A program made the translations under genes and the position numbers. 64,000 nucleotides of DNA from Halanaeroarchaeum sp. HSR-CO (GTDB lineage: Archaea; Halobacteriota; Halobacteria; Halobacteriales; Halobacteriaceae), in the NCBI RefSeq assembly GCF_024972755.1, contig NZ_CP087724.1, forward strand, positions 558,001-622,000, given 5' to 3'. Positions 4,200 through 53,390 of this stretch are shown piece after piece (position 1 is the first letter of the stretch; every line of letters starts with the position of its first letter). The notes beneath the pieces were generated by a model. That model was not told the origin of the DNA and ran no database searches. It saw only the letters and a program-made list of their open reading frames with translations.

Positions 4200-4642
4200 T
4201 GCCCCACGACCTCCCTGATGTCCTCCAGGTCCTCGAAGTCCGCTCTGTCGCGACGCGCGTCCTCGAAGACCGCCTCGGCGACCTCGATGCGGGCGCCCGT
4301 TCGCGCAGCGAGTGCGAGCGAATCGCTCGGTCGGGCGTCGACGACCACGTCTTCGCGTGGCGTATTGAGATGAAGATCGGCGATAAAGGTCCCATCACGG
4401 ACTTCGTTCACGACGATCCGGTCGACCCGCCCGCCGAGTTCCTCGACGATGTCGAGGGTCAGGTCGTGCGTGAGGGGGCGACCGATGTCCGCGGCGTCCA
4501 AGCCACGGGCGATGCTCACTGCCTCCTCGAATCCGATGAAAATCGGCAGCACGTCGTCGGCGTCCCCGACGTCGAGCAGGACGACCGGCGTCGGTCCGTC
4601 CGGCGTGCCCGCCACCCGGACGGCGTCGATGGTCGCGTTCAT
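4196..4642 (-). CDS. Bifunctional nuclease family protein (DUF151)
   Basis: 148 residues from the ATG at 4642. The open frame continues upstream, but that extra part is Arg/Ser-rich, unlike the rest, and overlaps secG. The domain is recognisable by the sequence around P-I-F-I-G-F-E-E-A, the D-x-G-R-P-L-T-H-D-L segment and the A-R-P-S-D-S-L-A-L-A-x-R motif near the end. The family is named from a plant nuclease with RNase and DNase activity; the function of archaeal members is not settled. It lies between secG and hisE, all on the minus strand, and overlaps hisE by four bases. Confidence 0.88.
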   Translation of the reverse strand: MNATIDAVRVAGTPDGPTPVVLLDVGDADDVLPIFIGFEEAVSIARGLDAADIGRPLTHDLTLDIVEELGGRVDRIVVNEVRDGTFIADLHLNTPREDVVVDARPSDSLALAARTGARIEVAEAVFEDARRDRADFEDLEDIREVVGQ

Positions 4643-4697
4643 ACGTAGGCGTCGGGCCCGCACTTCAAAAGGTTGCCTTGTCGGCGTCGGATCGAAC

Positions 4698-4859
4698 CTA
4701 CACGGTGATGGTGAGCAGCCGCACCAGGATGCCGAAGAAGACGCCGAAACCCAGGATCGTCTTCGGGTCGATCTTGATGGTGTTCTGGTTCTCGGCGTCG
4801 AAATAGCGGACGAGGCCCGCACTCGACATCAGCCCACCGGAGTTCTGACCGGAGCTCAT
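4698..4859 (-). CDS. secG: Preprotein translocase subunit Sec61-beta/SecG
   Basis: A 53-residue protein, easy to miss because of its length. It begins [20 protein letters not shown], followed by D-A-E-N-Q, the conserved K-I-D-P-K-T segment and one C-terminal membrane helix (about residues 35-52). This is the standard haloarchaeal SecG/Sec61-beta layout: a cytosolic Ser/Gly-rich N-terminus and a single tail-anchor helix. It is the small non-essential subunit of the SecYEG channel for protein export and membrane insertion. It reads in the same direction as the DUF151 gene, 55 bases away. Confidence 0.93.
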
Positions 4860-4993
4860 GAGTACCTCTCGCTCACGCTCGCGCGTAAACCTTTCGACGT
4901 CCCGACCGCCGTCCCGGGGACTGGGTGACGGCGGGGCGTGCCGATACGTGAGGAAACTCTTATGCGCGGGCCGTAACTATCGCCAGTAGACTA

Positions 4994-5266
4994 ATGACGG
5001 ACGTTACCCTCATGGATTTCCACGCCGACTGGTGCGGCCCGTGTAAGACCCAGGATCCGATCATCGAGGAACTGGAGGAGGACTACGGAGACGCGGTGAC
5101 CTTCGAGTACGTCGACGTCGACGAGGAACCCGACGTCGCCAACGAGTACCAGGTCCGCTCGATTCCGACGATCATCGTCAAGAACGAAGAGCAACTCGTC
5201 GACCGCTTCGTCGGTGTGACACAGCGCGATACGCTCGAGGACGCACTCGAGAAGGCCGGCGCCTGA
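4994..5266 (+). CDS. Thioredoxin
   Basis: A 90-residue thioredoxin-fold protein with the redox motif W-C-G-P-C-K (Cys14 and Cys17), a conserved D-F-H-A-D-W before it, and the cis-proline loop S-I-P-T near residue 56. It is a cytoplasmic dithiol-disulfide reductant. It is slightly shorter than bacterial TrxA (about 105), with a trimmed N-terminus as in many archaeal thioredoxins. A CTTATG element about 30 bases upstream suggests its own promoter. Haloarchaea usually have several thioredoxins, so no specific partner can be named. It is convergent with npdG. Confidence 0.93.
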   Translation: MTDVTLMDFHADWCGPCKTQDPIIEELEEDYGDAVTFEYVDVDEEPDVANEYQVRSIPTIIVKNEEQLVDRFVGVTQRDTLEDALEKAGA

Positions 5267-5280
5267 TCTCCGCACCCGTC

Positions 5281-5946
5281 TTACTGGAATTTTACTCCCA
5301 CGTCGTGGAGGTCGTCGTTGAACGCTCCGAGGTTGACTAGCAGTGGCGTGATGCCCTCGACCTCGGGCGCGTTCGCCAGCCCACCGCCGTCCAGCGGACG
5401 GAGTCCGTCGATGCCCGCGGTCAGCTGGGATATCTGTTCTTTGGCGTCCAGGTCGTCCCCGACGAGTACCGTGTCCAGGTCGATCTCGAGGTCGAGGTTG
5501 GCCAACCGGTCGGCCGAGAGGTTGTGATAGGCCCCGACGACGGGGACGTCGTCTGGCGCGACGGCCTCGACGAGCTGGGTGACACTCCCCACGTCCGGCG
5601 GGTTGTAGTGGAGTCCCGCTTCGTCCCGTGACATGCCCACCGCGGGGGAGACGAGGATGGTGTCCTCGAGGACGTCGGCGACGGTCTCGACCAGGTCGGC
5701 GACGTGGTACGGGGGGACCGCCAGGACGACGACGTCGCCCCGGTCGGCCGCCATCTCGTTGGCGAAGCCGGTCACCTTCCGGTCGACGTCGCGACTGGCG
5801 AGTTCGGTCTCGTACTCTTCGGCCTTGGTCCGTGCGCGCTCGGGGTCTCGGGATCCGATCACGACCTCGTGGTGAGTGTCGTACGCCCATCGTAGTGCGA
5901 GGCCGCCACCGATGTCGCCGGTGCCGCCGAGCAGGGAGATTCGCAT
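5281..5946 (-). CDS. npdG: F420H2:NADP oxidoreductase (NpdG-type)
   Basis: A 221-residue reductase with an N-terminal Rossmann motif G-G-T-G-D-I-G-G-G-L-A (about 7-17), the I-G-S-R-D segment that recognises NADP, and the V-P-P-Y-H / V-S-P-A-V-G-M-S regions typical of NpdG. It moves hydride between coenzyme F420 and NADP. Haloarchaea make F420, so the assignment fits. The lower-probability alternative is another NADP-dependent reductase of the same family, since the F420-binding residues cannot be proven by eye. Confidence 0.88.
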   Translation of the reverse strand: MRISLLGGTGDIGGGLALRWAYDTHHEVVIGSRDPERARTKAEEYETELASRDVDRKVTGFANEMAADRGDVVVLAVPPYHVADLVETVADVLEDTILVSPAVGMSRDEAGLHYNPPDVGSVTQLVEAVAPDDVPVVGAYHNLSADRLANLDLEIDLDTVLVGDDLDAKEQISQLTAGIDGLRPLDGGGLANAPEVEGITPLLVNLGAFNDDLHDVGVKFQ

Positions 5947-6034
5947 ACGCCGAACCTGCGTCGGCGGCGAAATAAGCGTTGTTACCCTGCGACGTGTTGC
6001 CCGTCGTCGGTGCCTGGTCCTCGATGTCCGCGGA

Positions 6035-6907
6035 TCAGTCCAGGGCCAGGAGTGCCGGCAAATCGTTCACCGAGTCGACGACGGCGTCGGCGCCGGCCTC
6101 CTCGTACTTCCGACGGCCGGCCTCGCCGGTCAGTCCGCCGGTCAGCACGCCCACGCCGTAGTAGGTCCGGTCCGGGTCGGCCTCGTTCGCGTTCGTCGCC
6201 GTCCGGACGTCGTCCAGCGTGTCGCCGACGAACGCGACTCGCTGGGCGTCACACCGCTCTGCGAGGGTAACGAGCGCCCGCGGGTGCGGTTTTCCCGCCT
6301 CCCAGTCGTCCATCGTGAACCGCAAATCGGGGGGAACGTCGAGGCCGACGCGGTCGAGCGCCAGCAGCGCCTCCGCCTCGGGCCGACCGGTCAAGACGGC
6401 GACGGGGAACGCCTCGGTGAGCACATCGATGGTCGCCGCCTCGACCAGGACGGGTTCGTCGTCGATGTAGCCCCGCGTTTCCATCGTCGCCGGTTCGCCT
6501 TCGATCTCCTCGTATCGATCGCTTCCCAGGTAGAACTGCTGGAAGACCTCGCGCAGGCGGTCTGGGTCCCACTGTCCGAGGACGCGCTCGGCGGCCCCCG
6601 CTTCGAGTTCCTCACGGACGACGGTCTTCGCCCCGTCCAATCCGCCACCGGCGTCGGCGATGGCACTGGTGAACTCCTCGAGGTCGAGGGAGAGTCCCGC
6701 TCGCCGGGCGAGCACGAAGAGCGTGGCGGCGTCCGTCAACGTCCAGTCGTTGTTGAAGCCGCCGGCGTCCTTGAACGCCTGGACCCCGGCCTTCGGGATG
6801 GTCTCGCCGTAGACGGTCTCGACGCTCTCGACGATGGTCCGGCGATAGGAGTCCGCGACGTCCACGAGCACCCCGTCGACGTCGAGGACGACGGCATCGA
6901 CCTGCAT
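6035..6907 (-). CDS. HAD-superfamily phosphatase (TIGR01548-like)
   Basis: A 290-residue haloacid-dehalogenase-type hydrolase. Motif I is D-V-D-G-V-L-V-D with the nucleophile Asp9 and acid/base Asp11. Motif II is in V-L-T-G-R-P near residue 170, and motifs III/IV lie in K-P-H-P-R-A and F-V-G-D-T-L-D-D near 210-240. A helical cap domain lies between motifs I and II. The length and the G-G-F-N-N-D-W segment in the cap match a subfamily found mainly in haloarchaea and cyanobacteria. The substrate is unknown. It sits between npdG and a UPF0146 gene, all leftward. Confidence 0.87.
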
Positions 6908-6935
6908 ACCAGAAGAAACGCCCAGACTGGTCTAA

Positions 6936-7328
6936 TCAGTTGTGGCTCGCGACGAACAGCGTGCCCTCGGCCACGGACCGCGGCTCGGCGGGGACGAGCG
7001 CGGGGTCCCCGCCCAGCGTCGTGAACAGCAGGTCCGCCTCGACCGTCCTCGCCACCCGCCAGACGTGTCGCTGGAGTTCCGGGGGGAGTCGCAGGGCGTA
7101 GATGGCGTCGGCGTCCTCGTAGTCTTCAGTGTCGGGTGCGGTGACGTCGTCGAGGACGAAGGTGACCCCCGCGGGGACGTCCCGCTGGACGACGTCGGTC
7201 GCGAGGACGGTGACACCCCGCCCGGCGAGATCGCGGGCGACGTCGGTTCGGTTCCCGATGCCGACCTCCACGACGCGCTCGTAGTCGGCGAGCACGTCGA
7301 CGGTGGCTGGCGGGTCTGCTGGTTCCAC
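6936..7328 (-). CDS. UPF0146 family protein
   Basis: About 130 residues, starting at a GTG at 7328. The open frame runs further upstream, but that part overlaps the archaemetzincin gene and is non-homologous shadow sequence. The core V-V-E-V-G-I-G-N-R-T, with a following A-T-D-V and D-D-V segment, looks like a small class I methyltransferase-type Rossmann fold, as known for UPF0146. No activity has been established. The ending F-V-A-S-H-N is normal for the family. It is divergent from the archaemetzincin gene with only 39 bases between start codons. Confidence 0.85.
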   Translation of the reverse strand: MEPADPPATVDVLADYERVVEVGIGNRTDVARDLAGRGVTVLATDVVQRDVPAGVTFVLDDVTAPDTEDYEDADAIYALRLPPELQRHVWRVARTVEADLLFTTLGGDPALVPAEPRSVAEGTLFVASHN

Positions 7329-7337
7329 GGCGGGATG

Positions 7338-7358
7338 TTTATTGCCGACGGGAAGTAA
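7338..7358. promoter_or_regulatory. Interleaved divergent promoters (UPF0146 / archaemetzincin)
   Basis: TTTATT at 7338-7343 lies about 27 bases before the archaemetzincin ATG at 7368. On the other strand a CTTACT-like element at about 7352-7358 lies about 27 bases before the UPF0146 GTG at 7328. Each promoter therefore sits inside the start region of the other gene, so the two may be mutually exclusive. Confidence 0.45.
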
Positions 7359-7367
7359 GTGCTGCTC

Positions 7368-7889
7368 ATGCGGATCGACATCGTCCCCGTCGGGGACGTC
7401 GCACCTCGCGTCAAGCGGGAGGCGTCGACGGCCATTCGCTCCGTCTACGAGGGTGACGTGACGGTCGTGGATGCCCAGCCGGTCCCCGAATCGGCGTACG
7501 ACGCCGGGCGCGACCAGTACCTCGCAGAGGAGTTCATCGAAGTGGCCTCCTCGGCGGGACGGGGGGAGAAATCCGTCGCCATCACGCCGAAGGATCTCTA
7601 CTACCGTCGCCGCAACTACGTCTTCGGGCTCGCCTACCTCGACGGTCGCAGCTGTGTCGTCTCGACGTATCGGTTGCAGACGTCCTCCGACGGTGGTTTC
7701 TCCGACCGCTCGGCGAGCGACGTCTTCGCGGACCGCGTCCGCAAGGAGGTCGTCCACGAGGTGGGCCACACCCTGGGCCTCGAACACTGCGATAACAACC
7801 GCTGTGCGATGAACTTCTCGCCGACCGTGCGGGAGGTCGACCGCAAAGAACAGCACCTGTGTGGCACCTGCCAGCGCCGCGTCTTCTGA
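7368..7889 (+). CDS. amzA: Archaemetzincin (zinc metallopeptidase)
   Basis: 173 residues from the ATG at 7368, preferred over a GTG nine bases earlier because of TATA spacing. The zinc site is H-E-V-G-H-T-L-G-L-E-H-C (about 127-138), followed by the conserved Met of the metzincin turn in C-A-M-N-F-S. The Cys residues after the His motif and the C-terminal C-x-x-C are the second, structural zinc site typical of archaemetzincins. It is a predicted cytoplasmic aminopeptidase-like protease; the natural substrate is unknown. The lone gene is divergent from UPF0146. Confidence 0.95.
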   Translation: MRIDIVPVGDVAPRVKREASTAIRSVYEGDVTVVDAQPVPESAYDAGRDQYLAEEFIEVASSAGRGEKSVAITPKDLYYRRRNYVFGLAYLDGRSCVVSTYRLQTSSDGGFSDRSASDVFADRVRKEVVHEVGHTLGLEHCDNNRCAMNFSPTVREVDRKEQHLCGTCQRRVF

Positions 7890-45988: not shown

Positions 45989-46867
45989 TCAGAACAGCGA
46001 GCGGACGTCGTAGGACTCGCCGGTCAGGAGGTAGAGCACGTCTTCGATGATGGTCGATATCTCGGGGAGCAGTCGCATGAGGGCCAGCGTCAACCCGACG
46101 AGCGCGACGACGGACAGCGACTGGGCCAGTACCCTGTCCGCGACGAGGTAGGAGACCATGTAGGGATTGTCCGTGCCGAACAGGAGGAAGACCGGGTCCC
46201 GGAACCCGTCGAACCACTGGTAGCCGTGGGCCAGGGCGATGAACGCGACTCGGATCAGGTTCAGTCCGTAGATGACCGGGACGGCGATGGCCACGCCGAG
46301 GAGTCGTCGCCGAAGCGGGGCATCGAGGGCCAGGACGAGGCCGCTGACGGTCGCACTGCTCCCGACGCCCGTACACGCGAGAACGACGGTAGTGAGGAAG
46401 ACGTGGCCGCTCTCGCCCATGAACCGGAACGTACTCCGATGGCCATCCGGCCCCGCCACGACGTTCGGGTCGTACCCGACCGAGGTCATGAGCATCTCGA
46501 CGTGGACCGTCACCGTCTCGATGGCGGTGCGCTGGAGCACCGCGCTCATCTCGAAGGGGAGATAGAGGATGCCCATGATGGCCACGGCACGGGTCAGCGT
46601 CTCGAAGTCCCGTTTGTCGGTCCAGATGAGATACGCCACGTATGCGGAGGCCGGGACTGCGATAGCACTGAGCACGCCCTCGATGGGACTCTTCTGCACG
46701 AACGCGAAGTGGGGGACCAGCAGTGCCCAGAAGATACCGAAGGTGACCCACGAACCCGTCGCCAACCAGGTTCCGACGCCGCCGTGTTCCTCACGTCGCT
46801 GGAAGAACGCACTCGCCAGGAACCCCGCGACGACGACCCACGCGAGCACGTCAGTCAGTGCCGACAT
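45989..46867 (-). CDS. artA: Archaeosortase A
   Basis: 292 residues with about eight membrane segments. The sortase-like catalytic triad is visible: Cys165 in L-A-C-T-G-V-G-S, Arg206 in N-L-I-R-V-A-F-I, and Arg245 in V-A-D-R-V-L-A-Q-S. In Haloferax, ArtA cuts surface proteins near a C-terminal Pro-Gly-Phe motif and joins them to a lipid, anchoring the S-layer glycoprotein. This copy lies 48 bases after a large surface protein gene, on the same strand, suggesting one transcript. Whether it handles that protein is open, because the protein lacks Pro-Gly-Phe. Confidence 0.94.
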   Translation of the reverse strand: MSALTDVLAWVVVAGFLASAFFQRREEHGGVGTWLATGSWVTFGIFWALLVPHFAFVQKSPIEGVLSAIAVPASAYVAYLIWTDKRDFETLTRAVAIMGILYLPFEMSAVLQRTAIETVTVHVEMLMTSVGYDPNVVAGPDGHRSTFRFMGESGHVFLTTVVLACTGVGSSATVSGLVLALDAPLRRRLLGVAIAVPVIYGLNLIRVAFIALAHGYQWFDGFRDPVFLLFGTDNPYMVSYLVADRVLAQSLSVVALVGLTLALMRLLPEISTIIEDVLYLLTGESYDVRSLF

Positions 46868-46915: not shown

Positions 46916-49900
46916 TTATCTCGTCAATCGGCGGAGGCCGAGGAGTCCGTAGAGGAACGCCACGATACCGAGCACGATGACGATGTTCGTCTCCTGCGTT
47001 CTGATGAACTCGGGGACGTCTTCGGTGACGAACGTGGCCGCCCGTTCTTCGACGGAACCCCCCGAATCCGGTTCGGTCGTCGGTTGGGTGCTCGTAGTCG
47101 TCGGCTCCGCCGTCGTCACTTCGTCCTCCGGGTCGTCACCACCTCCACCCGCGGACTGCCCCGACGAGCCGGTATCCTTAGCTGGCGCGACCGTGATCGG
47201 TTCCTCGACGACGCTGCCCGTGCGGACCGCCGTGAGTTCGTCGTCGTTGGCCGTCGCGACCACCGTGTACTCGGTCCCTTCCTGATAGTCCTCGAGGTCG
47301 ACCGAACCGTCGAAGGTGCCGTCATCCGAGACGACCTCCTCGTCAGATTGCTGGAAGGTGACGTTGTCGTCGTCCGACCGAACCGTGATCGTGACGGTGG
47401 TCCCCGGCGCGACGTTCGTCTCGCCGGCTATCGTCGCGTTCGCGGTCGCCTGCAGGTCGAGCGTCTCGTTTTCGTCCAGACCGGTGAAGCGGCCGTCGGG
47501 GGCTTCGAAGGCGACCACCGTCTCGGCGGACTCCGGCTCACTATCGTCCGACCCCGACCCGCCAGGGACGTACGGTGAACTCTCGTTCAACACGAAGGCG
47601 GCGTCGAACTCCTCACCGTCCTCGATCGCGTACGGACCGCCTTCGGAGGGAACGACGACGTACAGCCCATCTCGCTCGCCGTCGACGAGCGTCGAGGCGT
47701 TCGAGACGTTCAGCCCACGTGCCGGTTGATTCTGTGGGGGATTCGCCCGTCGAATGTCGACGTAGGCACCCGTGCGCGCAGCGGCAGCGGACCCTCGCCG
47801 GAGGTCAGTGCTGTCGTTCAGGAACCCGTCGATGCCGGTCGCGTCGACCGCGATGACCGCCTGGTCGCCTACCGCGACCGTCTCGCGTGGCGTCGTCCAG
47901 TTCTCGATGTCCTCGGGGTCGTCGAGGTCCACCCCCGCTGGCGCGACGAGCGTCGAGGCACCGGCCGTCGATCGCTCGACGATCCGTAGCAACGCAACGT
48001 CGGTCACCTCGCCATCGACGGTGGCCTCGAGGGTGTAGTTCCCGGTCTCCAGGGGGTCCGAGAGCCCCTTCGCTGCGGGGGCCGTGCGCCGAACGTCGAC
48101 GACACGGTCGTTCGGGAGGGAGTGGTTCTCGTTTCCGGCCAGACCGATCCCCCGTCCAGGTGCTCCGGCCCCGGCCCGGTGGGTGTTCACCTGGAGGTCG
48201 GCGTGGCCGTTGCCGTCCCGATCGACCACCGCGATGCGTTCGTGATAGTTGACCGCCTCGCTTCCGATCGAGACGGTCGCGTTCTCGGTATCGACCAGCC
48301 GGATCCCGATGGCAGCCACGTCCCCGCGTTCCTCTTCGAACACTGATCGGTCGAAGCTGGCTCCCGGATACCCCTTGCGGACGGCGACGGTCTCGGTTCG
48401 ATTGGTGACGCCCGTCCCGAGGTCGGTCACCCGAATCGACACGTTCGCCACTCGTGGCTCGAACTCGACGACGCCGTCACCCTCGCTGTCGAGTGTTACC
48501 GTCTGGCTATCCAGGACGGTCTGGTTGTCCGCTTCGAGCAGTTCGGCCCGGATCGCCCGATCCCCACCCGAAGCCGATACCGTCGCCCCGATCGGTCCGG
48601 CGACGTCCGTCGTGTTGGTCCGGTTGGCGGTCACGGAAAGCGAGAGTTCCTCGACCGGGACCCTGACGGTTTCCCCTTCGTCGCCGTCCTCGCTCTGGAA
48701 GGTTACCCGGTAGGCCGATGCGTTCGACTCGTTCGTATCGAGGCCCGTCAGCAGACTCGATTCGCCGGTCGAGGTAAGCCCCCACAACTCGTCCACGTCC
48801 CCGTCGTCGGTCGTGTCCGCCTCGATCCGAACCGACTCGTCGCGGTTCGGGACGTCGTTCTCGCCTCCACCGCCCTCGTTGGCGAGCACCGCGACCCGCT
48901 CCCCCTGGTAGACCACGTGCGGGCGCTCGTCGGCCTCGGCGACGGTCACACTCGTGGACTCGACCGCGAGCGTCTGCTCGGGGACCGCGGCCCCCGATTT
49001 CACCGCTAGCTCGTCACTCGCCAGCGACACCGACTCGACAGCCGATGGCGACACACTGGATTCCATCACGAGGACCACCCGCCCGTCACCGTCGTCGACG
49101 ACTTCGGTCACGTTCGCCGGCTCCTCGGCGACCGTCTCGACGGCGAACGCGTCTGGCGTCGTCGTCTCGGGGTCGATGGCGTCGGTAAATGCGAGTTCGA
49201 CGGCGGTCGCGCCGTCGCGGTCGGGGTTCTGGAACGCAGTGGCGTCGGCGGTGATGGCAGCGGGGTCGGCCACCGCGTAGGTCGGGCCGCTATCGATTCC
49301 GCCGACCGGTGAGCCGTCCGCGAAGAACATGCCGCGGTCGCCGGTGTCGAACTCGTCACCGAGACCGTCGTCCTCGACCGGGGAAATTTCGAAGTCCAGG
49401 GTCGCGTCGGTCGGTGCGTCCGGCGAGAGTGTCGCGGTCACGGAGAGATTCGTCGCCGCGTCCCCGGTCGGGATGACCCCTTCGTCCGGGCCGGGTTCGA
49501 GCGTCCAGACCCCGTCGTGGCTGGTCGTGGTCGAAGCGATCCTGGAGCCATCCTGGTGCAGGGAGACCGATTCGATCGCGTCTGCGGAGAGGGTGCCCCG
49601 GTTCTGGACGGTCAGTGCTGTTAGACGGTCGCCAAGGGTTTTGGGTGAACCTGATACGTCCTTTTCGGTATATATTGTATCGCCCTCGGTGTATTTCCCA
49701 TCTTCTGAACCTTCTACATATGACACTTCATCATGAAATTTATTCACTTCATTTCCAAATATTGAACTTTCATAATTTCCGGTATGCGGTAGAGTGGCAC
49801 CTATTATAACGTCATTTTCATCTAGTTCCCCATCCGATGTCCCCGAATCAATATAGGCTTCCGCAAAATCATCTGCGGCGAATTCGGCTTCAATCTTTCC

Positions 49901-51850
49901 GATATCCGCTCTTCCTGGTGCAATTTGAGACATATAAATGGAATCGGTTGGATCTAATGAATCATCACCCACTGAATCCGAGAGAATTATCGTCTCATCC
50001 GTGCTATATTTCTCATCCCCATCATTATCAATGAACTCAAAGTCGTGCCCAATGTGATTAACTGGTCCCCCCGAACCTTTGTCGATAATCCTGTCATATT
50101 TTGTTAAAGTATTATCGTCTGGAATTGCTGATTCGATTATTTGGTCACCTTCGTCAAAGTTTCCGTTATTATTTGAATCAATGAACTCAATATCATTTGG
50201 TATCAGATTTGCATCAATACTATCAATATCTGTAAAGCGAATAACATAATCCTCGCTCGTTAATTTGTTACCAGAAGTCGATTTTTCGATGAGAAGTTCT
50301 CCTGTGTCCAATTTCCCAATTCTACTATTCTTTTGATCAGAGTATAGAATCTCACCTCCTTCGAATGGACCTTCAGAATTGGCGATATCTTGATATTTTG
50401 CTCCTTCTAATAGCGTTCCTTGAATCTCCAGAACACTCGAATGATCTTCATAAGGCTGAAGAATATTTGTACTTGGGTAGATCATTTCATCTTCTGGGGA
50501 CGTGGTCCACCTTTCGAATTTCACAATAGGTTCAGACCCGGGATTTGACTCTTCCTCAGATACTGTGTCAAGCCTGCCGTTGCCATTTAAATCTAAAAAT
50601 CCAATGTTAGTGTATGAACCACTAGTTACCTTTGTGGCCGAATCCGTATCATTTGTTAAGTTTGGACTTCCCTTTGCTGAAAGAACTAGATCTTCCCCAG
50701 CATTATATCCTGGATTCTGCCCGCTTTCTACGAATAAAAACTCAGAATCCTCGTAAATTGCATCTTTACTGTTTCCAATATATACGTTTCCCTCTCCAAA
50801 AGTGGCGATACTTGAACCAATCCCTGTTACGTGTCCTTCACCACTGAATAGGATTTCATCATCACTATCCAATCTTCCCTCCTCATCTCCGACGTCATCA
50901 ATTATCGCTTCGGATGGATTGTATTGGTCCGAATCGCTTTCAATTTCATCAATAAAATACACTTCCCCTTCTGAAATTGATTCAAGGTTAGCATTTCCAT
51001 TTTTGACCACCCGGTCTTGATCCGACAATTTTCCTTCATCTATTGATCCATCTCCATCATCAATTATTATGGCCTCACCATTTTCGTAATCTGGAGAATT
51101 CGAATCTCCGATTTGATTTATATAGTAAGAATCTCCGTCTACTGAGTCAAAACCGTATATCGGGGCTTTGCCTTTCCGGAGTAATTCCGTATCTCCCTCA
51201 TCAAGTGGTCCAGTTGTCAGTTCACCAAGATCGTTTGAAACTAAGACGGGTTCATTTACATCAAGTACCCCATCATTACCGTCCTCACTGTCCAGAAAAA
51301 TTTCCGTTTCAGAGGTTTCGGAGAATGAAATTAATGGTAGATCGCCTCCGAAAATTATATCGTCTGATTCCGTTAGTAACTCATCATTAGTGTTGTCTTT
51401 GATTATGGGGTTTTCTTCGGTGAGTGTGTCGGAATTATCCGAATCAATATAGACTGTACTATCTGGTAGTTGGCGTAATACATCACCCGAAGGGTCCTCA
51501 TCCGCATTAGTGTACTTCCGAAATCTTATCACGGTATCATTGAGGTCAAATTTGTTTGACTCATCCCCTGTATCGATATACATTTCAGGAGTTGTAGATG
51601 TCGGGGCAGAAAATCCTTCACCAGTTTGACCGAACTCGGGATTTTCTGTTGTTGAAAAAATATTATCTTCACTCCCCACACTCACGTTCACCACGGATAC
51701 CGTCTGTCCCGGATACACCGATTTCTCTCCCGACCCGTCGGTCGCCGTCACCTGCGTCCCGTTCGCGACGCCCAAGAACGATATCGGCGTGCTGGCCACC
51801 AGCGCTATCGCTACCGCTACTGCCAGGACCCGCCGTCCGCGCCCGGTCAT
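46916..51850 (-). CDS. Giant surface glycoprotein with A/T-rich repeat core
   Basis: 1644 residues. The N-terminus is a Sec-type signal (M-T-G-R-G-R-R then a hydrophobic run to about 28). Residues about 57-737 are about 11-12 degenerate repeats of 45-65 residues, each with a Y/F-I-D-x-D/N-x-D/N-G-x-L/Y-x-E-x-D/E-x-I-I type Asp-rich loop pair, resembling dockerin/EF-hand calcium sites. The remaining part is typical beta-rich haloarchaeal surface sequence, with a domain near 1450-1550 resembling the BGTF surface domain. A Thr/Glu/Pro-rich stretch, one membrane helix and a basic end (L-R-R-L-T-R) close the protein. No Pro-Gly-Phe motif is present (V-P-E-F-I instead). Upstream, a T/A-rich promoter region lies about 70-110 bases before the ATG, hinting at a longer leader. 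Confidence 0.85.
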   Translation of the reverse strand: MTGRGRRVLAVAVAIALVASTPISFLGVANGTQVTATDGSGEKSVYPGQTVSVVNVSVGSEDNIFSTTENPEFGQTGEGFSAPTSTTPEMYIDTGDESNKFDLNDTVIRFRKYTNADEDPSGDVLRQLPDSTVYIDSDNSDTLTEENPIIKDNTNDELLTESDDIIFGGDLPLISFSETSETEIFLDSEDGNDGVLDVNEPVLVSNDLGELTTGPLDEGDTELLRKGKAPIYGFDSVDGDSYYINQIGDSNSPDYENGEAIIIDDGDGSIDEGKLSDQDRVVKNGNANLESISEGEVYFIDEIESDSDQYNPSEAIIDDVGDEEGRLDSDDEILFSGEGHVTGIGSSIATFGEGNVYIGNSKDAIYEDSEFLFVESGQNPGYNAGEDLVLSAKGSPNLTNDTDSATKVTSGSYTNIGFLDLNGNGRLDTVSEEESNPGSEPIVKFERWTTSPEDEMIYPSTNILQPYEDHSSVLEIQGTLLEGAKYQDIANSEGPFEGGEILYSDQKNSRIGKLDTGELLIEKSTSGNKLTSEDYVIRFTDIDSIDANLIPNDIEFIDSNNNGNFDEGDQIIESAIPDDNTLTKYDRIIDKGSGGPVNHIGHDFEFIDNDGDEKYSTDETIILSDSVGDDSLDPTDSIYMSQIAPGRADIGKIEAEFAADDFAEAYIDSGTSDGELDENDVIIGATLPHTGNYESSIFGNEVNKFHDEVSYVEGSEDGKYTEGDTIYTEKDVSGSPKTLGDRLTALTVQNRGTLSADAIESVSLHQDGSRIASTTTSHDGVWTLEPGPDEGVIPTGDAATNLSVTATLSPDAPTDATLDFEISPVEDDGLGDEFDTGDRGMFFADGSPVGGIDSGPTYAVADPAAITADATAFQNPDRDGATAVELAFTDAIDPETTTPDAFAVETVAEEPANVTEVVDDGDGRVVLVMESSVSPSAVESVSLASDELAVKSGAAVPEQTLAVESTSVTVAEADERPHVVYQGERVAVLANEGGGGENDVPNRDESVRIEADTTDDGDVDELWGLTSTGESSLLTGLDTNESNASAYRVTFQSEDGDEGETVRVPVEELSLSVTANRTNTTDVAGPIGATVSASGGDRAIRAELLEADNQTVLDSQTVTLDSEGDGVVEFEPRVANVSIRVTDLGTGVTNRTETVAVRKGYPGASFDRSVFEEERGDVAAIGIRLVDTENATVSIGSEAVNYHERIAVVDRDGNGHADLQVNTHRAGAGAPGRGIGLAGNENHSLPNDRVVDVRRTAPAAKGLSDPLETGNYTLEATVDGEVTDVALLRIVERSTAGASTLVAPAGVDLDDPEDIENWTTPRETVAVGDQAVIAVDATGIDGFLNDSTDLRRGSAAAARTGAYVDIRRANPPQNQPARGLNVSNASTLVDGERDGLYVVVPSEGGPYAIEDGEEFDAAFVLNESSPYVPGGSGSDDSEPESAETVVAFEAPDGRFTGLDENETLDLQATANATIAGETNVAPGTTVTITVRSDDDNVTFQQSDEEVVSDDGTFDGSVDLEDYQEGTEYTVVATANDDELTAVRTGSVVEEPITVAPAKDTGSSGQSAGGGGDDPEDEVTTAEPTTTSTQPTTEPDSGGSVEERAATFVTEDVPEFIRTQETNIVIVLGIVAFLYGLLGLRRLTR
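49640..51690. repeat. A/T-rich tandem-repeat core of the surface gene
   Basis: About 2 kb within the surface gene whose base composition is plainly lower in GC than everything around it (many AAT, TCA, ATT and TTC words), while the frame stays open on the minus strand. It encodes the repeat array. The sharp change at both ends, at about 51690 and 49640, suggests insertion or replacement by recombination. Repeats are diverged at the DNA level, so they are old relative to the 42-bp repeats at 38.9 kb. Confidence 0.8.
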
Positions 51851-52078: not shown

Positions 52079-52261
52079 TCACCTCGGTCGCAGGACGACG
52101 AGGTAGGTCAGTAAGGCGACGATCGCCGTACCGATGGCGATGTTCTCGAGGGTGTACGCGGCCAGGTCCAGATAGGAGAGTCCCCAGACGATGATCGTCG
52201 CGTAGAATGCCGAGAGGACGAAGTTCAAAACGAGGAGGACACGGATGTCGCCGGATGCCAT
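52079..52261 (-). CDS. Small two-helix membrane protein
   Basis: 60 residues from the ATG at 52261. It has two hydrophobic helices (about 8-26 and 40-58) with a short acidic loop between them and ends R-P-R. I do not recognise the family. It lies between the surface-protein promoter and the HerA-like ATPase gene; the ATPase stop is 31 bases upstream on the same strand, so it may be its co-transcribed partner. Confidence 0.65.
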   Translation of the reverse strand: MASGDIRVLLVLNFVLSAFYATIIVWGLSYLDLAAYTLENIAIGTAIVALLTYLVVLRPR

Positions 52262-52292: not shown

Positions 52293-53390
52293 TTACGGAC
52301 TCCGGGTGCCGGGTGCGACGACCTCGTCCGGGGTGACGTGGTCGTCGGGTCGGGGAGAGCGGTCGGTTCGTCGCTTTGATGCCTGGGGCGTCTCTCCCTC
52401 GTGAGGGGTCCGTCGTTCGCGGATGGTGATCGTGACCGCAGATTCGGTCGCGTCGTCGACGACGAGGGCCTCCCCGACACCCTGGGGGAGCTGTGTGGCG
52501 AGGTCACCGTCGAGATACGTCGGATTGGTGCGCGAGAGGGCGTCGATGTCGGGACCAGCAGTGAGTCGGTGGCTGACGACGAGGTCGGCCTGGGAGATGG
52601 CGACCGCGGGGAGGGCGGCGGGGCGCTGTGTCGCGAGGACGAGGCTCACCCCGGGATGACGACCCCGCGTCAGGAGCGTCCGGATGGCGCGGCCGGCGAC
52701 CGTATCGGTGACGGCGTGGGCCTCGTCGACGAGGAGCCACGGCAGTGGTTCGTCGTCCGTCCGTAACGCGCGGTCGTAGACGCCGCGGGCGACGGCGAAG
52801 ACGATCGCGGCCTGCGCGGCGGTGGGCGTCCCACTCGTCTCCAGGACGGTGACGCCCTGGGTCTGCAGGTCGGCGGCCGTCAGGCCCGAGGGGTCGAAGG
52901 TCTCCCAGCTCGCCGCCAGTTCGAGATGGTTGAGGACCGCTCGTCTCGTCTCTGCAGGAACGCCCGCGGTATCCACGACGGCTCGCATCTCCCGGAGGGT
53001 GTCGGCGGTGGCGGCGGCTCGCCAGAGCAACGCCCCCGGTCCCGCCGCCGGATCCAGATCGAGGAGCTGACACCAGCCCGCCGGAGGCACCGCGTCCGCA
53101 CGGATCGTCGGCTGGGTGACGGTGCGGGCGAAGGGGGCCGCCGCCAGGCCGGAGAACGCCCCCATCGGGTCGACGACGATGCCCGAGACGCCAGCAGTAG
53201 TGCCGATTTCCTCTGCGAGCACCCCGAGGGTGTAGGACTTCCCCGAGCCACGTTTGCCGACGACCAGTCCGACGTGGGGGCCTTCGAGGTCGATGGCCAC
53301 CGGGGCCCCACGACTGCCATCCGTGGCGAGGTAGTGTCCGAGCGAACCGATCTGTCCGGAGTCGGCCGAACGACCGAGGACGGAGGTCAT
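52293..53390 (-). CDS. HerA-like ATPase
   Basis: 365 residues. Walker A is V-G-K-R-G-S-G-K-S-Y-T near 43-53 and Walker B is P-W-L-L-V-D-E-A-H near 215. A conserved R-G-R-H-P-G-V-S segment and L-V-L-A-T-Q-R-P sensor are typical of HerA/FtsK-type ATPases. It lacks the N-terminal HAS-barrel length of true HerA (about 500 residues) and no nurA nuclease gene is near, so it may be an independent DNA- or membrane-related motor. The C-terminal ~50 residues are polar and probably disordered. Confidence 0.85.
   Translation of the reverse strand: MTSVLGRSADSGQIGSLGHYLATDGSRGAPVAIDLEGPHVGLVVGKRGSGKSYTLGVLAEEIGTTAGVSGIVVDPMGAFSGLAAAPFARTVTQPTIRADAVPPAGWCQLLDLDPAAGPGALLWRAAATADTLREMRAVVDTAGVPAETRRAVLNHLELAASWETFDPSGLTAADLQTQGVTVLETSGTPTAAQAAIVFAVARGVYDRALRTDDEPLPWLLVDEAHAVTDTVAGRAIRTLLTRGRHPGVSLVLATQRPAALPAVAISQADLVVSHRLTAGPDIDALSRTNPTYLDGDLATQLPQGVGEALVVDDATESAVTITIRERRTPHEGETPQASKRRTDRSPRPDDHVTPDEVVAPGTRSP

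Follow-up and report, generated by a model that had tools for sequence, protein, structure and literature searches.

Why should the middle of a gene differ sharply in base composition from both of its ends, and what does the difference say about how the gene was assembled? The question is raised by a surface protein gene of Halanaeroarchaeum sp. HSR-CO, which lies in the 64,000-nucleotide stretch of DNA analysed here (the window). A preliminary description, made from the letters of the window, had placed an A/T-rich island at 49640–51690 inside the gene, with an intact reading frame, and had proposed that recombination replaced the exposed part of the protein. A maximum-likelihood two-edge change-point fit put the edges of the GC island at 49639 and 51672, close to that claim. 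The core between these edges is 40% GC (GC3 0.32), whereas the parts on either side are 65–67% GC, with a GC3 of 0.77 in the first 61 residues and 0.83 in the C-terminal 905 residues. The frame is open throughout, as had been described.

The contrast also holds against the rest of the window. Compared with 39 other window genes (mean GC3 0.844, sd 0.058, lowest 0.678), the core has a GC3 z-score of about -9, and 300-bp stretches outside the core never fall below 0.467 GC. Recoding the amino acids of the core with the codons of the gene's own C-terminal part gave a GC of 0.579±0.005 and a GC3 of 0.827±0.014. Because GC3 reaches 0.83 after recoding but is 0.32 in reality, the shift in composition is synonymous, and an acidic, Asn/Ile-rich protein is ruled out as the source of the low GC. 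The comparison of GC and codon usage in core and flanks, suggested along with the original claim, thus came out in its favour: the composition island is not a product of chance. The features of the locus are collected in Table 1.

Table 1. The surface protein gene, its parts and its neighbours, in window positions.
Feature	Position	Strand	Remark
Mosaic S-layer-like surface protein gene, 1644 aa	46916..51850	(-)	Open frame
GC-rich 5' part: signal peptide and first ~59 residues	51674..51850	(-)	Homologous to Halanaeroarchaeum sulfurireducens
AT-rich core (class A cassette), residues ~60-737	49639..51672	(-)	GC 0.40, GC3 0.32
GC-rich C-terminal part	46919..49633	(-)	S-layer-like domains (DUF7827, BGTF surface domain)
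C-terminal tail	46919..47044	(-)	Invariant VPE, transmembrane stretch, R-L-x-R
Archaeosortase A gene, directly downstream of surface gene	45989..46867	(-)	TIGR04125, 303.8 bits vs cut-off 75
HerA-like ATPase gene, upstream of surface gene	52293..53390	(-)	
Small conserved membrane ORF in the ATPase/surface gene interval	52079..52261	(-)	Last ~60 aa of a longer ORF

The C-terminal part of the protein matches the BGTF surface domain (NF045517, 65.9 bits against a cut-off of 40) and DUF7827 (PF25162, 57.3 bits against a cut-off of 27). The model for ArtA-dependent S-layer glycoproteins (NF041335) scores 123.3 bits on the whole protein, below its cut-off of 1100. Sequence searches with the core (residues ~60–737) returned no match in Pfam, NCBIfam or PDB. 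Each of the cores compared below contains 0–2 EF-hand-like loop matches in a test for calcium binding, some above shuffled sequences, though not in all species, and AlphaFold models of the two kinds of core, run as single sequences, had a mean pLDDT of 32 and 30 and were unusable. The architecture of the protein suggests that the core is membrane-distal and exposed at the cell surface. No PGF-CTERM sorting signal was found in the tail, which has no PGF and matches no NCBIfam CTERM model; PGF matches in this genome fall at other sites, and a separate PGF-type S-layer gene is present there. The tail, with its invariant VPE, membrane helix and R-L-x-R and without PGF, is kept in all five genomes described below, adjoining archaeosortase A, and may represent an anchor that escapes processing or a sorting signal of an unrecognised kind. 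The same genome encodes a further surface protein (1472 aa, GC 0.54; L092:6481-10899; G000:C1 ~704480-708898), whose C-terminal end consists of three near-identical ~95-aa repeats without a membrane anchor.

We compared the gene with its orthologues in four other genomes, those of Halanaeroarchaeum sulfurireducens (G001) and of three Halodesulfurarchaeum (G003, G009 and G012), so that with the window genome (G000) the sample comprises five genomes from two genera, one per species; G012 is a MAG in which the locus lacks its 5' end at a contig edge. One order of genes is found in all five, HerA-like ATPase, surface gene, archaeosortase A, with archaeosortase A directly 3' of the surface gene, and an ATPase-like end adjoins ArtA also in genomes without the cassette. 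The small membrane ORF of the window aligns with H. sulfurireducens. In that species the C-terminal part of the orthologue (L023:4276-9447) carries two low-complexity tandem expansions, of DDTTDS repeats and of DDTFEEMAAGTVTE repeats, both missing from the window's gene. A plasmid of the same species (124 kb; 124,256 bp; L146) carries the BREX-5 defence genes pglX and brxB.

Among the first 40 genomes searched, the core of the window gene occurred in one other, at 30% identity, and the genome from the same genus had a C-terminal part 51–60% identical joined to a different core. The five cores fall into two classes, class A in the window genome and G003, class B in H. sulfurireducens, G009 and G012. 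An order-wide search of 392 genomes from 95 genera found these classes in 2 and 3 genomes, respectively, all of them Halanaeroarchaeum or Halodesulfurarchaeum. At the ArtA locus of 18 other genomes of the family no AT-rich core was found; the locus is occupied there either by a GC-rich S-layer gene of the PGF type or by other sequence.

In all five genomes the core is AT-rich (GC 0.38–0.42, GC3 0.31–0.37, against a GC3 of 0.65–0.83 in the C-terminal parts), so this composition is old and common to all of them. Since all four orthologues are equally AT-rich, AT-richness is no mark of one recent foreign import. A single AT-rich import into the window species, still unadapted to its host's composition, would explain the sharp composition edges and the foreign codon usage, but we consider it very improbable: besides the four AT-rich orthologues, synonymous sites are saturated within class B inside a single genus (pS 0.80 between G009 and G012) while core GC3 is still 0.37, and such cassettes are too old for a recent arrival.

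Cores of the same class align across genera over nearly their full length (214–221 bits). In class A, the cores of the window gene and G003 score 221 bits (E 5e-67); in class B, H. sulfurireducens and G009 score 219 bits, and G009 and G012 score 398 bits. Between classes, the cores of the window gene and H. sulfurireducens score 27 bits (E 0.002), and those of G003 and G009 are alignable only in the last 39 residues, which adjoin the shared C-terminal part. An hhalign comparison of class A with class B gave a probability of 92% over 176 columns, and on this evidence the classes may be very distant relatives. One could suppose that the core merely evolves so fast that homology between sister species has vanished, and the C-terminal part, too, changes faster than the neighbouring genes. 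This is scarcely credible, however, when same-class cores align over their full length across genera and the cores of sister species differ completely.

The phylogenies of the two halves conflict in the same way. The tree of the C-terminal part, (G000,G001),(G012,(G003,G009)), has a support of 100 and follows the genera, and the C-terminal part rejects the grouping of the cores (p-AU 1.7e-46 and 1.5e-39). The cores in turn give the tree (G000,G003),(G001,(G009,G012)) and reject the grouping by genus (p-AU 1.2e-45). This tree required the very distant classes to be aligned by force, and the bit scores are therefore the more reliable evidence.

The boundaries of the exchanged DNA can be read in the pair G003 and G009, which are sister species by all of the flanking DNA. 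Their identity is 94.2% as far as 203 bp upstream of the ATG; no similarity exists over the following ~2.4 kb, after which the sequences are 92.5% identical, with identity resuming at about codon 727. In Halodesulfurarchaeum the swapped block starts directly past the end of the ATPase gene. Composition and homology edges agree within ~15 bp in both genomes, the GC edges lying at 4604–6997 in G003 and 5145–7376 in G009 and the homology edges at 4607/6990 and 5148/7390. Between the two Halanaeroarchaeum genes the 5' break is intragenic and follows ~59 conserved residues; their 3' break, in protein coordinates, almost coincides with that of Halodesulfurarchaeum.

From the conflict between core and flank trees together with the clean block in G003 and G009, we conclude that the exposed part was replaced through recombination, leaving an unrelated core between flanks that are 92–94% identical. 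The proposal made in the preliminary description is thereby supported, for the most part by evidence on which that description did not draw: trees that reject one another and a block swapped within nearly identical DNA. That description had named, as an observation that would speak against it, orthologues in close relatives with the same core, the same composition and the same tree as the flanks. Core and tree were found to differ; the AT-rich composition was found to be the same in all four orthologues, so that in this gene low GC is not the trace of a recent foreign import.

The window between 49400 and 52100 contains no inverted repeats, and the core occurs only once in the window genome. 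Neither a site-specific recombinase nor a repeat was found at the cassette borders. With neither flanking inverted repeats nor a second core copy, an invertible (phase-variable) switch and repeat-mediated excision were rejected. Another route to the same pattern would start from an ancestor with class A and class B genes in tandem, of which each lineage kept one through deletion or unequal crossing-over. Such losses would likewise yield incongruent classes with common ends, and haloarchaea often have surface loci made up of several genes (PMC3119063). We nevertheless think this route improbable, since no genome among the five carries both classes, the core searches show one site per genome, and both copies would have had to last until G003 and G009 had separated, two species that remain 92–94% identical in their flanks.

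The reading that we favour, with good though not complete confidence, is that the gene joins a swappable cassette on the N-terminal side to a C-terminal half that stays in place and is anchored in the membrane, and that cassettes are exchanged by recombination under selection. DNA bearing the other cassette would enter the cell by mating, uptake or a virus, and would recombine on the conserved ATPase side and on the conserved side of the C-terminal domains and ArtA, a route of exchange that we infer. The membrane-distal part of the protein would be replaced, and the reading frame and anchor would stay. Surface-binding viruses, or other recognition that gives an advantage to rarity, could then maintain both classes for long. 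S-layers take part in the entry of haloarchaeal viruses (PMC8875312). Viruses would be a likely selective agent here. The cassettes would be AT-rich either through steady supply from an AT-rich pool or through escape from the genome's GC-raising process.

How old are the two classes? Across genera, same-class cores are 30–32% identical and the C-terminal parts 30–34%. The divergence of the cores is thus close to that of the C-terminal part, and, judging from these identities, the two classes probably date back roughly to the origin of the two genera, or further. Within classes, core identity is 30–39%, and for neither of the exchanged cassettes does the sample contain a close relative. The resident C-terminal part is under purifying selection (dN/dS 0.24 between G003 and G009), and no positive selection was found.

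The remaining question is why the cassette stays AT-rich. Because both classes have equally low GC in one slot, an inherited foreign composition alone is no explanation. The non-coding head of the Halodesulfurarchaeum cassette is even more AT-rich (GC 0.29–0.31), so codon choice is not the sole cause. The dinucleotide signature is independent of class: distances between cores are 33–129, against 175–316 between a core and its own C-terminal part, and the closest pair, at 33, is G003 and G009, one class A and the other class B.

Repeated re-import from an AT-rich reservoir, such as a virus, a plasmid or low-GC haloarchaea, fits the far greater likeness of the cores to each other than to their own C-terminal parts. 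A neighbouring AT-rich stretch of G003 and G009 also suggests that AT-rich DNA moves here; it encodes a BCCT-type transporter (L024:12390-15600 and the matching end of L025), is 91–100% (mostly >98%) identical between the two Halodesulfurarchaeum species within surroundings that are ~93% identical, and is probably a recent transfer. Against re-import stands the absence of a core homologue from every collection searched. None was found in phage, plasmid and IMG/VR collections, the last covered by two core scans with two short patterns each; the C-terminal part had no match in IMG/VR either, and across the phylum the cores gave only short matches to distant archaea, with weak E values of 1e-4 to 4e-3, which we did not accept as homology. 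We regard re-import as a serious candidate, somewhat short of an even chance.

A second possibility is that classes too divergent to pair let the core escape GC-raising gene conversion and drift towards AT. This agrees with low GC in both classes and both genera, the non-coding part of the cassette included, and with a dinucleotide signature that is independent of class. It is weakened by the finding that the direction of gene conversion in Haloferax volcanii has no GC dependence (PMC8223754), and it predicts AT-rich divergent genes elsewhere, of which the window has none; we hold it only tentatively. Equally doubtful is the view that the exposed half carries a long-lived two-class polymorphism predating the split of the genera, in a slot that itself imposes or retains an AT-rich composition.

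The favoured reading, an exchangeable cassette on a resident anchor, describes an intragenic swap in which an archaeal surface protein exchanges its outer part, and the borders are resolved almost to the base. Two versions that run across genera are what would be expected under long-term diversifying pressure, for example from viruses. In these oxygen-avoiding, salt-loving archaea, the swap resembles the changes of coat by which microbes escape viruses. The locus also offers a test case for GC-poor exchanged surface loci, as two hardly alignable sequences occupy one slot at the same low GC.

Intragenic surface replacement is already known from the halomucin gene of Haloquadratum walsbyi, where in region DV1, as here, the middle varies and the N- and C-terminal parts are common (PMC3119063). 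That protein is a different one, its versions are near-equal in GC (57.7/57.9%), and the variation is explained largely by repeats and deletions and lies between strains, not across genera. The S-layer gene and GI1 of Haloquadratum walsbyi are likewise exchanged between conserved borders, and virus escape has been proposed (PMC3119063, PMC4535781, PMC4033161), but there a whole gene or island is exchanged with the break outside the gene, whereas here the break is inside and the anchor half stays. The available part of a report on Haloferax describes two divergent types of S-layer glycoprotein within the genus, with recombination mostly within clades, and, unlike the present case, no AT-rich swapped block (PMC5867893). 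The S-layer cassette of Clostridioides difficile also exchanges surface-layer genes by recombination, but is multi-gene and bacterial and encodes unrelated proteins (PMC7677006). With the NF041335 and BGTF families the window protein shares its C-terminal part (123 and 66 bits); it differs from NF041335 members in scoring far below the 1100-bit cut-off, in having no PGF-CTERM and in its unrelated N-terminal ~680 residues. Within the literature that we found, what is new is an S-layer-like gene with an internal break, core classes common to two genera, and low GC in both.
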